A stretch of 61,087 nt of DNA from Limisphaerales bacterium (GTDB lineage Bacteria > Verrucomicrobiota > Verrucomicrobiia > Limisphaerales > SXTU01), in the NCBI GenBank assembly GCA_009773355.1, contig WRPG01000028.1:1-61087 (forward strand), given 5' to 3'. Each line of letters starts with the position of its first letter. Position 1 is the first letter of the stretch. Shown here one piece after another: positions 48,860 to 53,811 of this stretch. The notes beneath the pieces were generated by a model that ran no database searches, was not told the DNA's origin, and worked only from the letters and a program-made list of their open reading frames with translations. The position numbers and the translations under genes are program-made.

Positions 48860-49132
48860 ATGTCCCAAGCCATCATTGACCCCGCCGAGGTGCGGCGCTT
48901 CGCCGAGGAGCTGCGCCGCTTCAACACCGACGTGTCCGAGCGCACCACGCAGCTCTCGGCGCGCTTCGCCGCGCTGGGCGACTCGTGGCAGGACCAGGAG
49001 CACGCGAAGTTCGCCGAGGAGTTCAAGCAAACCATGAAGGTGCTCAAGAAGTTCGTCGAGGTCTCAAACCAGCACGCGCCCTTCCTCCTGCGCAAGGCCC
49101 AGAAAATCGAGGAATACCTCCACCAGCGCTGA
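48860..49132 (+). CDS. WXG100-like protein
   Basis: This 90-residue protein has the size and two-helix hairpin layout of WXG100 (ESAT-6-like) proteins. Helix one runs about residues 8-38 (EVRRFAEELRRFNTDVSERT), the turn holds GDSWQDQEHAKF at about residues 40-51, and helix two continues to the end. The turn motif is W-Q-D in place of W-x-G, a common variant. There is no signal peptide. The gene is first in a four-gene operon whose last member is an FtsK/EccC-type ATPase, which is the usual partner of such proteins. The next start is two bases after its stop. Confidence 0.85.
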   Translation: MSQAIIDPAEVRRFAEELRRFNTDVSERTTQLSARFAALGDSWQDQEHAKFAEEFKQTMKVLKKFVEVSNQHAPFLLRKAQKIEEYLHQR

Positions 49133-49134
49133 CC

Positions 49135-49662
49135 ATGCCCGAGCAGGCCCGCATCACGTCCGTCGAGGCCGTCGAAGCCTTCCGCGCCGACCTGCTCGTC
49201 TATCTGGACAAGGCTCGCAACGTCGTGGACGAGGTTGGCGAAGAAGTCAGCCGCACGCGCGCGTGGCTCCAGGACGACCGCGCCCGCCACTGGGCGCAAC
49301 AGGTCAAGCGCCGCACCATCCAGTTGCAGGAGCGGCAGCAGGAGCTTTTCACCGCGCAACTCGGCAAGCGGCAGAACATCCAGGGCGAACTCGTCGCCGT
49401 CCGCCGCGCCAAGCAATCGCAGGAGGAGGCCGAAACCAAGGTTAAGGCCGTGAAGCAATGGCTCCGCGACTATCCGGTCGAAGTCGAACCGCTAGCCCGC
49501 CACGCCGATTTGCTACGTCACTCGCTCGTCACCGACATGGGCAAGGCCGTCGCGCTCCTGTCGCAGACCATCGAGGCGCTCCATGCTTATGCCGCCGTGA
49601 AGCCGCCGGTGGCGGATGTGCCAACACCCGCACCGGCCACGGAAACTCCGCCCCTCACATGA
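49135..49662 (+). CDS. Coiled-coil protein of WXG100/FtsK operon
   Basis: This 175-residue protein is almost entirely helical through residue 150 (FRADLLVYLDKARNVVDEVG, then VKRRTIQLQERQQELFTAQL, AVRRAKQSQEEAETKVKAVK), ending in a Pro/Thr-rich tail (VADVPTPAPATETPPLT). The segment TRAWLQDDRARHWAQQVK carries W residues reminiscent of the W-x-G turn. It may be a longer WXG/LXG-like substrate or a chaperone. The start at 49135 is two bases after the upstream stop, and its own stop overlaps the next ATG by four bases. I do not recognise a named family. Confidence 0.82.
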   Translation: MPEQARITSVEAVEAFRADLLVYLDKARNVVDEVGEEVSRTRAWLQDDRARHWAQQVKRRTIQLQERQQELFTAQLGKRQNIQGELVAVRRAKQSQEEAETKVKAVKQWLRDYPVEVEPLARHADLLRHSLVTDMGKAVALLSQTIEALHAYAAVKPPVADVPTPAPATETPPLT

Positions 49663-49871
49663 GCCTCAACTCCACCCGCACGCGCCTGACCGCGCTGACC
49701 AAGCAGCTCTCGATTCGCTGGAACGAGACGCGCGAGCACTGGCAGGACGCCAAGGCCGCTGACTTCGAGAAGCGCTACCTGCAAGAACTGTTCTCGAGGG
49801 TGAACACCGCCGCCGCCAGCATTGAGACGCTGGACCAGGCGCTCACCAAAATCCGCCGTGACTGTGAGTAA
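49659..49871 (+). CDS. Second short WXG100-like protein
   Basis: This 70-residue helical-hairpin protein has the turn text REHWQDAKAADFEKRYL near residue 26, parallel to SWQDQEHAKFAEEF in the first gene. The N-terminal helix is short (STRTRLTALTKQLSIRW) and the second helix runs to the end. It is smaller than usual WXG100 proteins. It overlaps the upstream gene by four bases (ATGA) and the downstream ATPase start by eight, so it is firmly inside the operon. It may form a heterodimer with the first WXG100-like protein. Confidence 0.78.
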   Translation: MSLNSTRTRLTALTKQLSIRWNETREHWQDAKAADFEKRYLQELFSRVNTAAASIETLDQALTKIRRDCE

Positions 49872-52800
49872 GCTCCTCTCCGCCAGCGAAACGCTCGACC
49901 TCCTGCGCCGCCTCCGCGACGCGATGCGGACCTTCACGGCGCGCGAGGAGCAGCTTCAGCGCGAGCAGCAGGCGCAGGAGACGCGGCTCATACAGCGCTG
50001 CGAAGCCGTCTTCACCCAGCGCTCCGAGCAGCTTCAGGCCGAAGCCACCGCGTTGGAAAACTCACTGAACGAAGCCCGCACGCGACTCAGCTCCCGCTGG
50101 GACAAGCGCCACGCCAACCTCATCCGCGCGCACAGGAACACCCTCCGCCAGTGCCTCACGCGCATCGAAGAACGCGAGAACCAGCGCAAGTTCGAGCTGC
50201 AACGCGAGCTGCTGAACGCCCAGCGCCAACGCGAGGCGGCGTTCAAGGGGGCCAGCGCGGCGCACGCGAAGTTCACCGCGCAGCTCAAGGTGGAGCAGGA
50301 GTCGCTCGCCAAGCTCTACGAGCGCGCCCGCGTTGCAATGCGCGGCTACCGCAGTTGGTCGCGCCAGCTCCGTGCCGGCGACTCGAAGTCGCCGTCCGAC
50401 GCATCCGCCGCTGGCGACCCGAATCACTCACTCGAACAGCTCCGCATCAAACTCGCCGCAGCCGCAACTGACTTGGAGCGCGTGCGGGGCACGGTGCTCC
50501 CACTAATCTTTAGCTACGCCCCAGTTACGCTTTGGCTTTGCGCTGGCGCGGTGCTATTGGCGTATGGCGCTTTGACTTATGCGCCGATGAATCCGCCGCG
50601 GGCGGGAACTACCTTCTCTCTGCTCTGCCTAATAGGAGGCTCCGCGCTACTGCTCGGTGCGTTCACACACGTCATCGGGCGACTTGTGGCTGGAAAACCG
50701 GCTAGCACACTCGCGCTTACGCTATCGGAAGCCCAACAGTTGGCAACGGTGTGCGACCAGCAGGCCAAAGCCCGTCGCCAAGCGGAGGAGCAATATGCCG
50801 AGGCGGAAGCCGCCGCCGTCGGTCAAGGCCACGAGGACGAGTGGAACAAGGCACTGAACGAGACCGATACCACCAAGACGGAGTGCAAGCGGGAGATGGA
50901 AGCCCGGCTCCAGCGCGCGACTGCCAGATACGAGCGGTTGCGCGCGACTTCGTCAGAAGTCTTTGAGCAAACCAGCACGGCACGGCTCGCGACGGCGAAA
51001 ACAAATGCGGACGAGGAGTTGCAAGGCCTCGCCATCGCCAACGAGACCTCGCAGATGACTGTGGCGAACCAACGCGAGTCCGCATGGTTGTCGCTCGCCA
51101 ACGAGTGGCGCGCGGCCACAGAGCCGCTCTTCGCGGCGCTCGGCGCGTTGCAGCACGCGGCGGCAGAGCAGTTCCCAGCGTGGACGCTGGATTTCGCGCG
51201 GCAGTGGACAGCGCCTGAAGGGTTCGCCCACGCCGCGCAGTTCGCCCGGCTGGACGTGGACGTGGCGAAGCTGGCGGGTGCGCTGCCTCGCAACCCACGG
51301 CTCGCGCTGCCCGGCCCGGCGAGTTTCTCGGTGCCGCTGCTGCTCACGGTGCCGCAGCTTGCCTCGCTGCTCGTCGAGACGAAGGGCGATGGACGTGAGC
51401 AAGCCATCGCGGCGCTGAACGACACCATTCTCCGCCTGCTCGCCAGCGCGCCGGCGGGCCGCCTGAGCTTCACGCTGATTGACCCGGTCGAGCTTGGGCG
51501 CAGCTTCTCCGGGCTGATGCACCTCGGCGACTACGACGACCGGCTCATCAACAGCCGCATCTGGACGCAGCCCGCGCAAATCGAGCAGCAGCTCGCCAAC
51601 CTCAACGAGCACATCGAGAAGGTCTCGCAGATGTATCTGCGGAACGAGTTCGCGACCGTCGCGGACTACAACGCGCAGGCAGGCCGCATCGCGGAGCGGT
51701 TTCACTTCCTCGTCGTCGCGGACTTCCCGGCGAACTTCTCGGACACGGCGATGCGGCGGCTGGCGAGCATCGTGGCCGGTGGCGCGCGATGCGGCGTCCA
51801 TACGCTGCTGCACTGGGACCAGCGGAAGGTTGCGCCAGCGGAATTTGCTCCTGATGAACTGCGCGCTGCCGGCGTGAACTTGCGGTGGGAGGGGAATTCT
51901 TTCTTGGTCGGCGGCGAAATCTTGCCCGGCATCACGCTCGTGCTGGAGCCGCCCCCGTCGCCGGAGATTGCGACGGAGTTGTTGCACAAGGTCGGGCAAG
52001 CCAGCGTGAACGCGAACCGCGTGCAGGTGCCGTTCACCGACATCGCACCGGCGGCGGATGCGGTTTGGTCGGTGGACACGGCGGAGGAGTTGCGCGTGCC
52101 CATCGGGCGCACGGGCGCGACGAAGCTGCAATACCTCGCGCTCGGCAAGGGCACACGCCAGCACGCGCTCGTGGCGGGCAAGACCGGCTCCGGCAAGTCC
52201 ACGCTCTTCCACGTCATCATCACGGACCTCGCGCTGTGGTGCAGCCCGGAGCAGGTGGAGTTTTACCTCGTGGACTTCAAGAAGGGCGTCGAGTTCCGCT
52301 GCTACGCGGCGCACCGACTGCCACACGCGCGCGTGGTGGCCATCGAGAGCGACCGCGAGTTCGGCCTGAGCGTGCTGGAGCGGCTGGACGAGGAGTTGAA
52401 ACGGCGCGGCGAGCTGTTCCGCAAGGCCGGTGTTCAGGATTTGCCCGGCTACCGGCGCGCGGGCGGCGGGCCGATGCCGCGCACGCTGCTGCTGATTGAC
52501 GAGTTTCAGGAGTTCTTCGTCGCGGACGACCGCGTGGCGCAGGGCGCGGCGCTGTTGCTGGACCGCATCGTGCGGCAGGGCCGGGCGTTTGGCATCCACG
52601 TCATCCTCGGCTCACAGACGCTGGGCGGCGCTTACTCGCTCGCGCGGGCGACGCTGGGGCAGATGGTCGTGCGCATCGCACTCCAGTGCAACGAGGCCGA
52701 CGCCGCGCTCATCATGGAGGATAACAATCCCGCGCCGCGTCTGCTGTCGCGCCCGGGCGAGGCGATTTACAACGACGAGGCTGGAGCGGTCACGGGCAAC

Positions 52801-53811
52801 AGCCCATTCCAGACCGTGTGGGTGTCGGACACGGAGCGCGAGGAGTGGCTAGTGAAGGTAAGTGAACTCGCCAACGCCGGTAGGGCCGACCTGCCGGTCG
52901 GCCTTGGCACGATGAGTGAGAAAGCCGCGCGGCAGCGCGGCCCTACCACGGTTGTCTTTGAAGGCAACGCGCCGGCGGATGTGCGCGAGAATGAGTTGCT
53001 CCGGGAACTGCTGGGTGTGGCGACCGCAACGACAACGGAAGTTCCTCGCGCTTGGCTGGGCGCACCAAACTCCATCAAAGGCCCGACGGAGGCCGCGTTC
53101 CACCGGCAGAGCGGCAACAACCTGCTCATCATCGGCCAGCGCGACGAGGCGGCGCTGGCGATGCTCGGCGCGTCGCTCATCGCGCTCGCAGCACAGGGCG
53201 CGGCGCGGCTCGTCGTGCTCGAAGCCAGCCCGCCGGAGTCGGCACAGAAGCGGTTTTTCAAGTCGGTGGCGAAGGCCATTCCGCACGGCTGCACGCTGGC
53301 GAAGGCGGGCGACTTGGAGACGTTAATGACGGAGTTGGACGCGGAGTTGAAGCGCCGGCTCGCCGAGGACCACGGGGCCGGTGCGCCCGCGTGCTTCGTG
53401 TTCGTCCACGAGCTGCAGAAGTTCAAGAAGCTGCGGCACGAGGAGGATTTTAGTTACTCGTCGGACGAGTCGAAGCCGCCGGCTCCAGGCGCGGTGTTCG
53501 AGCGGCTCATCACCGAGGGGCCGGGCGTGGGAATGCACGTGGTCGTGACGTGCGACAGCTACAACAGCCTGGCACGCGCGTTGAGCCGAAAGGCCATCAG
53601 CGAGTTCGAGCTGCGCGTGCTGTTCCAGATGAGCGCGAACGATTCGGCCACGCTGTGCGACTCGCCCAAAGCGTCGGACCTCGGCCTGCACCGCGCGTTG
53701 CTGCACAACGGGCAGATGGGCTTTCTGGAGACCTTCCGGCCCTACGCACTGCCGGATGCGGCGTGGCTGGAGGAAGCAGGCCGGGAACTGACACGCCGGG
53801 TTGGCCGATGA
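49864..53811 (+). CDS. FtsK/EccC-type ATPase with coiled coil and TM pair
   Basis: I propose the GTG at 49864 (read MSKLLSASETLDLLRRL) as start, giving 1315 residues; an ATG at 49822 overlaps the previous gene more deeply. N-terminal coiled coil spans about 10-200, two membrane helices lie near 212-236 and 247-272, and more coiled coil reaches 400. A degenerate ATPase-like domain without Walker A follows (about 474-700, with LSFTLIDPVELGRSFSGLMH). The active FtsK domain has GKTGSGKST near 772, FYLVDFKKGVEF, and Walker B LLLIDEFQEF near 874. A third degenerate domain begins near 1080 (NLLIIGQRDEAALAML). The layout matches EccC/EssC ATPases. In-frame repeats occur at 50372-50394 and 52879-52947. 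Confidence 0.88.
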   Translation: MSKLLSASETLDLLRRLRDAMRTFTAREEQLQREQQAQETRLIQRCEAVFTQRSEQLQAEATALENSLNEARTRLSSRWDKRHANLIRAHRNTLRQCLTRIEERENQRKFELQRELLNAQRQREAAFKGASAAHAKFTAQLKVEQESLAKLYERARVAMRGYRSWSRQLRAGDSKSPSDASAAGDPNHSLEQLRIKLAAAATDLERVRGTVLPLIFSYAPVTLWLCAGAVLLAYGALTYAPMNPPRAGTTFSLLCLIGGSALLLGAFTHVIGRLVAGKPASTLALTLSEAQQLATVCDQQAKARRQAEEQYAEAEAAAVGQGHEDEWNKALNETDTTKTECKREMEARLQRATARYERLRATSSEVFEQTSTARLATAKTNADEELQGLAIANETSQMTVANQRESAWLSLANEWRAATEPLFAALGALQHAAAEQFPAWTLDFARQWTAPEGFAHAAQFARLDVDVAKLAGALPRNPRLALPGPASFSVPLLLTVPQLASLLVETKGDGREQAIAALNDTILRLLASAPAGRLSFTLIDPVELGRSFSGLMHLGDYDDRLINSRIWTQPAQIEQQLANLNEHIEKVSQMYLRNEFATVADYNAQAGRIAERFHFLVVADFPANFSDTAMRRLASIVAGGARCGVHTLLHWDQRKVAPAEFAPDELRAAGVNLRWEGNSFLVGGEILPGITLVLEPPPSPEIATELLHKVGQASVNANRVQVPFTDIAPAADAVWSVDTAEELRVPIGRTGATKLQYLALGKGTRQHALVAGKTGSGKSTLFHVIITDLALWCSPEQVEFYLVDFKKGVEFRCYAAHRLPHARVVAIESDREFGLSVLERLDEELKRRGELFRKAGVQDLPGYRRAGGGPMPRTLLLIDEFQEFFVADDRVAQGAALLLDRIVRQGRAFGIHVILGSQTLGGAYSLARATLGQMVVRIALQCNEADAALIMEDNNPAPRLLSRPGEAIYNDEAGAVTGNSPFQTVWVSDTEREEWLVKVSELANAGRADLPVGLGTMSEKAARQRGPTTVVFEGNAPADVRENELLRELLGVATATTTEVPRAWLGAPNSIKGPTEAAFHRQSGNNLLIIGQRDEAALAMLGASLIALAAQGAARLVVLEASPPESAQKRFFKSVAKAIPHGCTLAKAGDLETLMTELDAELKRRLAEDHGAGAPACFVFVHELQKFKKLRHEEDFSYSSDESKPPAPGAVFERLITEGPGVGMHVVVTCDSYNSLARALSRKAISEFELRVLFQMSANDSATLCDSPKASDLGLHRALLHNGQMGFLETFRPYALPDAAWLEEAGRELTRRVGR
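50372..50394. repeat. In-frame single REP in FtsK gene
   Basis: GTGCCGGCGACT-CGA-AGTCGCCG, read in frame as RAGDSKSP. Flank text GTGCCGGCGA matches the 40893/43468 family with a different stem. Confidence 0.7.
52879..52947. repeat. In-frame REPIN in FtsK gene
   Basis: GGTAGGGCCGACCTGCCGGT with CGGCC, and the inverse-flanked GCCGCGCGGCAGCGCGGCCC with TACC, frame about 20 bases. It is translated as GRADLPVGLG through KAARQRGPTT in a linker after the active ATPase domain. Confidence 0.85.

Follow-up and report, generated by a model that had tools for sequence, protein, structure and literature searches.

A toxin-free WXG100/EssC-like ATPase operon with a predicted membrane anchor in Verrucomicrobiota

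Introduction

An EccC-like ATPase and a WXG100 protein are the two components common to type VII secretion systems (T7SSs, PMC11217815). In Gram-negative bacteria, WXG100 genes lie by an FtsK/SpoIIIE gene, and these pairs are unconfirmed as secretion systems (PMC10765036). WXG100 genes of Verrucomicrobia and Lentisphaerae are listed in Sutcliffe 2011, as cited in PMC6471051. Judged through this citing paper, the list, which covers the same phylum as the operon described here, probably includes the present family.

In Helicobacter, HP0062 is described as an ESAT-6-like hairpin whose bend reads WRD, with an FtsK gene in its vicinity (PMC3397514); for pairs of the HP0062/HP0066 type, the term minimal T7SS has been used (PMC4978471). 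A module linked to TerY-P islands and to Type III-A CoCoNuT systems contains two WXG100 proteins and an EssC-like ATPase, which has an N-terminal coiled coil, no transmembrane (TM) helices and a middle domain that alone is active (Bell 2024, PMC11090510). The same paper doubts the usual secretion mechanism for these TerY-P/CoCoNuT-linked modules, and refers to Anantharaman 2012 on copies of the EssC-like ATPase module that stand alone. The idea that WXG100/FtsK pairs form a minimal T7SS in Gram-negatives is already published (PMC4978471, PMC10765036, PMC11090510). Here, we describe a four-gene operon from Verrucomicrobiota and compare it with these systems.

The operon and its small proteins

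The window analysed, a stretch of 61,087 nucleotides, is part of contig 97 of a 6.16-Mb draft genome (~95% complete) from a Limisphaerales bacterium, and the closest relatives of this genome are Verrucomicrobiota. The host had earlier been presumed to be diderm. This is borne out by the Omp85 gene found in its genome, i.e., the host has an outer membrane. Four tightly packed genes occupy positions 48860-53811, see Table 1, and on re-check their coordinates, the gap and both overlaps are exactly those given in the earlier note. A scan for promoters and terminators at the operon found nothing and is uninformative.

Table 1. Features of the operon, with positions in the window.
Feature	Position	Strand	Description
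Gene 1	48860..49132	+	WXG100 protein, 90 aa, turn motif W43-Q-D45
Gene 2	49135..49662	+	Helical/coiled-coil protein of 175 aa with a proline-rich tail and without a toxin domain; 2-bp gap after gene 1
Gene 3	49659..49871	+	Second WXG100-like hairpin, 70 aa, turn W28-x-D30, C-terminal DCE kept; 4-bp overlap with gene 2
Gene 4	49864..53811	+	EccC/EssC-like FtsK-family ATPase, 1315 aa, GTG start; 8-bp overlap with gene 3
Gene 4, TM helix pair	50494..50664	+	Residues 211-237 and 247-267, by hydropathy
Gene 4, TM2 running into long stalk helix	50605..51171	+	Residues 248-436, single helix in the AF2 model
Gene 4, first ATPase-fold domain	51145..52053	+	~Residues 428-730, degenerate, no P-loop
Gene 4, middle ATPase domain	52054..52863	+	~Residues 731-1000, intact
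Gene 4, Walker A	52177-52203	+	In the middle ATPase domain
Gene 4, Walker B	52486-52506	+	In the middle ATPase domain
Gene 4, third ATPase-fold domain	52921..53808	+	~Residues 1020-1315, degenerate

Genes 1 and 3 both encode WXG100-type hairpins, as had been proposed from the sequence, the first by its Pfam match and the second by profile ranking and fold. Gene 1 scores 37.2 bits against the Pfam family WXG100 (PF06013, cut-off 27.3), its closest solved relative is HP0062 of H. pylori (3fx7, E 1e-10), and W43 and D45 are invariant among 46 homologues; the protein has a YLxQR tail. A profile comparison of genes 2 and 3 with gene 1 by hhalign is not significant, and the identity of gene 3 was for this reason placed by its ranking against related operons together with its fold. 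When its profile is compared with ~900 proteins, WXG100 proteins of related operons rank 1, 3, 5 and 7. The AF2 model (pLDDT 95) has two helices, residues 4-27 and 31-69, with W28-x-D30 at the turn, and each of the 12 best structural matches is a WXG100 protein (Z 7.9-9.0, which is modest for a helical hairpin, rmsd 1.3-1.8, 65-69 residues).

The WXG100 label needs a qualification. Both proteins are of the WXG100 type, but the turn motif is W-x-D, never W-x-G, in 46/46 homologues of both proteins. The export signal YxxxD/E is found in the last 30 residues of neither gene 1 nor gene 3 in any of the 46 homologues, and no further WXG100 protein scores above the cut-off in the host genome. In gene 3, W28, D30, F36 and C69 are invariant among the 46 homologues. 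The cysteine, the penultimate residue of the protein, belongs to the conserved C-terminal DCE and would place a free thiol there.

Gene 2 matches no Pfam family. Neither the protein of the window nor its ~70 homologues contain a toxin domain or a long C-terminal fusion; like the window protein, the homologues examined comprise only a helical portion and a tail rich in proline.

The ATPase

The product of gene 4 scores 102 bits against PF01580 and 115 bits against the NCBIfam model TIGR03924 (EccCa), the latter over the middle domain only and below the cut-off of 509. The top-scoring models for the active domain are EccC, the best solved relatives are EccC proteins, and the best whole-length fold match is EccC of T. 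curvata (4nh0, E 8e-25). No FHA match was found in gene 4. The earlier description of a TM pair and three ATPase domains, one of them intact, holds for the homologues as well: two such TM segments are present, by hydropathy, in 60 of 63 homologues, and the P-loop is restricted to the middle domain in all 63.

Judged by its sequence, the middle domain is EccC D1-like (hhalign E 5e-25), while the third is closest to EccC D3 (E 5e-8) and D2 (E 6e-7). For the first domain, the profile comparison is weak and gives no clear choice among the EccC domains, whereas the fold points to the DUF domain of EccC5 (8rin, Z 15.5, rmsd 3.7, 222 residues). In the AF2 model of residues 200-1315 (pLDDT 78), the second TM helix runs into a very long stalk helix, which is one helix in the model (model residues 49-237), with low confidence in its middle part.

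FtsK-type DNA translocase was tried as a family label and rejected, as gene 4 scores 26 bits against the FtsK cell-division family NF007615, with a cut-off of 1566. The C-terminal part of the protein fits the folds of TcpA and FtsK too (Z 23.8 and 23.6), which could speak for an FtsK/TcpA-type protein, either a DNA translocase or a coupling protein of conjugation. Matches of single domains to these folds are, however, expected within this ATPase superfamily. Sequence and full-length fold favour EccC/EssC over FtsK, gene 4 is joined to WXG100 genes, and no recurring mobility gene lies nearby, so that this explanation was already disfavoured and is in our view highly improbable.

As in the canonical T7SSa and T7SSb and in T7SSc-j (PMC11217815), an EccC/EssC-type motor with two TM helices is combined with WXG100 proteins. 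The operon differs from these systems in that no ubiquitin-like or EssB-type part was found, the motif is W-x-D, the first ATPase-fold domain is degenerate and the coiled-coil stalk is long. The genome-wide search for T7SS parts took in YukC, YukD and EccB. YukC/EssB and YukD/EsaB gave no match in the host genome (~95% complete), while the B. subtilis control was matched; EccB gave no match, but its control search gave none either.

The operon could still belong to a true T7SS, with the genes for its other components and for its substrates lying at other places in the genome. An EccC-like ATPase and WXG100 proteins are what such a system would share with other T7SSs, but YukC and YukD gave no match where their controls were matched, W-x-D stands in place of W-x-G, no YxxxD/E signal and no further WXG100 protein above the cut-off were found, and gene 4 lacks an FHA match. 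We consider this explanation unlikely, and canonical T7SS was rejected as a family label on the turn motif, the export signal and the YukC/YukD result. The parts list and the minimal T7-like module that had been suggested for this locus are supported, with no EccB, EccD or EssB parts in the operon and with an EccC D1-like middle domain. For secretion, neither an export signal nor a further substrate of this type in the genome nor a known channel partner was found.

Conservation and genomic neighbourhood

Searches with all four proteins fetched 112 loci, some of which represent one and the same genome, and the complete four-gene set is present in 101 of these, which makes the operon more than a chance arrangement. 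In eight of the 11 incomplete loci, though not in the other three, the operon is cut by a contig end. Three loci (L029, L046 and L085) have gene 4 without a recognisable gene 1, though the contig runs on upstream.

Among 58 relatives, mostly from the same order, 33 have a full-length gene 4. The WXG100 gene 1 is found in 32 of these 33 and in none of the remaining genomes, and gene 2 is found in 32 of the 58, exclusively in genomes with gene 4. Both are single-copy in each genome, and no extra gene-1-like (WXG100) or gene-2-like gene is present elsewhere in the 58 genomes, i.e., there is no obvious further cargo. Across the phylum, the occurrence is patchy (16/288 genomes). The stand-alone operon also occurs in isolates, and no relatives were found among viral contigs and phages.

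The flanks are not shared, and the four-gene set is thus a self-contained unit. With antisense shadow frames and scattered response regulators (14 loci) set aside, each neighbour family is limited to at most 8 of the 81 loci. Neither VWA, PP2C and kinase genes as conserved neighbours nor a recurring mobility gene were found in the 81 loci, and a missing channel or cargo sought among the conserved neighbours of ~80 loci was not found.

The four genes are conserved to different degrees, with mean column identities of 80% for gene 1, 54% for the ATPase, 52% for gene 3 and 40% for gene 2. The high conservation of gene 1 compared with genes 4 and 2 fits a part of a machine better than a diversifying effector.

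In one locus (L017:3199-3800), a pair called by eye as a HigB/RelE-like toxin and an HTH antitoxin is inserted between genes 2 and 3. In another (G036:C466:13277-14102), fragments of gene 4 are found alone, without gene 1 or 2, probably a decayed copy.

Sister operons

Plasmids searched at the protein level yielded five operons with related ATPases. Their common layout is a WXG100 gene, a coiled coil with a nuclease, in some cases an immunity gene, a small protein and the ATPase. Gene 4 aligns across all three domains with the ATPases of Caballeronia, Helicobacter, Rhodococcus and Deinococcus, and the operons of Caballeronia, Helicobacter and Deinococcus as well as one from Rhodococcus likewise encode WXG100 proteins with W-x-D. 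The ATPases of the sister clades are without the TM pair, hence the original role of the family may have been other than membrane transport.

The plasmid operon of Helicobacter sp. NHP19-012 starts with WXG100 and continues with a coiled coil bearing a WHH/colicin-DNase domain, a SUKH-1 immunity protein, a 77-aa protein and the ATPase, i.e., a polymorphic-toxin pair lies within a minimal T7-like module (L118:9408-13810). Both this operon and the HP0062/HP0066 cluster (PMC4978471, PMC3397514) resemble the Verrucomicrobiota operon in the W-x-D hairpin, the FtsK-type ATPase and the small protein directly before the ATPase. In contrast, the Verrucomicrobiota operon has neither the toxin nor the immunity gene of the plasmid, and the plasmid ATPase has only 823 aa and lacks the TM pair and the long stalk.

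In Caballeronia SBC2, the order is VWA, WXG100, a 436-aa coiled coil, a 113-aa and a 76-aa protein, the ATPase, CARF, VWA, PP2C and kinase, which is a TerY-P island. The 436-aa protein has a further C-terminal domain without a Pfam match, which by analogy with the proteins in PMC11090510 may be nuclease-like. On a Rhodococcus plasmid (L119:6489-10457), the EssC-like ATPase bears a TerD domain at its N-terminus, and its gene precedes toxin-like, small, WXG100 and TerD genes.

Gene 2 occupies the position of the toxins in these operons, and it looks like their helical front part without the toxin. Its profile, compared with ~900 proteins, ranks the toxin-like gene of the Rhodococcus plasmid operon first, with a weak E-value of 0.002, and shows no link to the toxin front parts of Caballeronia and Helicobacter.

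One Verrucomicrobiota genome (G268) has both versions. Its stand-alone operon (L129) has four genes and an ATPase with the TM pair. The second version is a TerY-P island (L127, G268:C1:1714000-1731000) with VWA, WXG100, a 442-aa coiled-coil effector-like protein, an EssC-like ATPase without the TM pair, a Card1-like CARF nuclease, PP2C and a kinase. The stand-alone operon of this genome adjoins yajC/secDF-like genes. A tree of the ATPases places the stand-alone proteins together on one side of a branch with support 96/93, separate from the TerY-P proteins; the deeper joins are unsafe owing to long branches.

The TerY-P/Type III-A CoCoNuT module (PMC11090510) and the Verrucomicrobiota operon are alike in having an EssC homologue with three ATPase domains, of which the middle one is active, an N-terminal coiled coil, and two WXG100-type proteins along with a coiled-coil protein. 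They differ in that a TM pair splits the coiled coil in Verrucomicrobiota, gene 2 is without a nuclease, and no TerY-P, VWA or CARF genes recur nearby. With no nuclease on its coiled coil, the operon is not the CoCoNuT-extension form but a toxin-free variant of the wider WXG100/EssC-like-ATPase module.

These islands bring in the chief rival explanation, a non-secretory stress or defence platform, in which a membrane-tethered ATPase and a hairpin scaffold would handle nucleic acid or damaged complexes and nothing would be exported. The VWA, PP2C, kinase and CARF genes around the sister operons, the TerD domain on the Rhodococcus ATPase, the lack of a TM pair in the TerY-P/CoCoNuT-linked ATPases and the doubts of PMC11090510 about secretion all fit such a platform. 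However, the stand-alone clade has no further recurring neighbour in 81 loci and does possess the TM pair, so that we regard the platform as possible but doubtful. A link to Ter-type systems had been named beforehand as what would refute a secretion module; it exists for the sister ATPase clades, which are tied to TerY-P/TerD islands and nuclease toxins, but no such recurring neighbour is found here in ~80 loci.

A proposed function

From the parts observed, their conservation and homology, the membrane segments, the single intact ATPase domain and the absence of a toxin domain, we believe on balance that the operon belongs to the WXG100/EssC-like-ATPase family as a member that stands alone, has no effector and is anchored in the membrane, and that its EccC-type motor moves or assembles the hairpin and coiled-coil proteins of the operon at the inner membrane. 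Gene 4 is predicted to be held in the inner membrane by its TM hairpin and to have a long helical stalk and a single functional ATPase domain, and would probably be hexameric. The two small hairpins of genes 1 and 3 probably pair, and may dock on the degenerate ATPase domains. ATP hydrolysis would then most likely move the complex of hairpins and coiled coil into the inner membrane or through it, or assemble it there; this direction is presumed, and part of the complex may leave the cytoplasm.

A fixed function is favoured over a weapon by the high conservation of gene 1 and because variable toxin ends, immunity genes, orphan toxins and additional WXG100 genes are all lacking; genes 1-3 would then be the machine's own parts or its only cargo. 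Against the motor reading stand the lack of YxxxD/E in genes 1 and 3, the fact that neither further cargo candidates in the 58 genomes nor a known T7SS channel or accessory part were found, the sister ATPases without a TM pair, and the weakness of the link between gene 2 and the toxins (E 0.002).

More tentatively, it can be speculated that the operon has a housekeeping role as a T7SS-like machine for export or assembly that is free of toxins, combines a single inner-membrane motor with three small helical proteins, and is inherited across outer-membrane-bearing Verrucomicrobiota. It would then be the toxin-delivery module of the Ter islands minus its toxin, and anchored in the membrane.

As far as the literature searched shows, the definition of the Verrucomicrobiota clade, the TM pair, the toxin-free gene 2, W-x-D in both hairpins, the one-copy occurrence and the coexistence with the TerY-P version are new. 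Gram-negative WXG100 genes with FtsK-type ATPase genes have been listed since 2011 and are unconfirmed as secretion systems. The Verrucomicrobiota clade is their simplest and most regular form, with four genes in one copy, no toxin and no accessory genes. It makes it directly testable whether WXG100/EccC-like motors need other parts, and whether diderm bacteria export by them at all.
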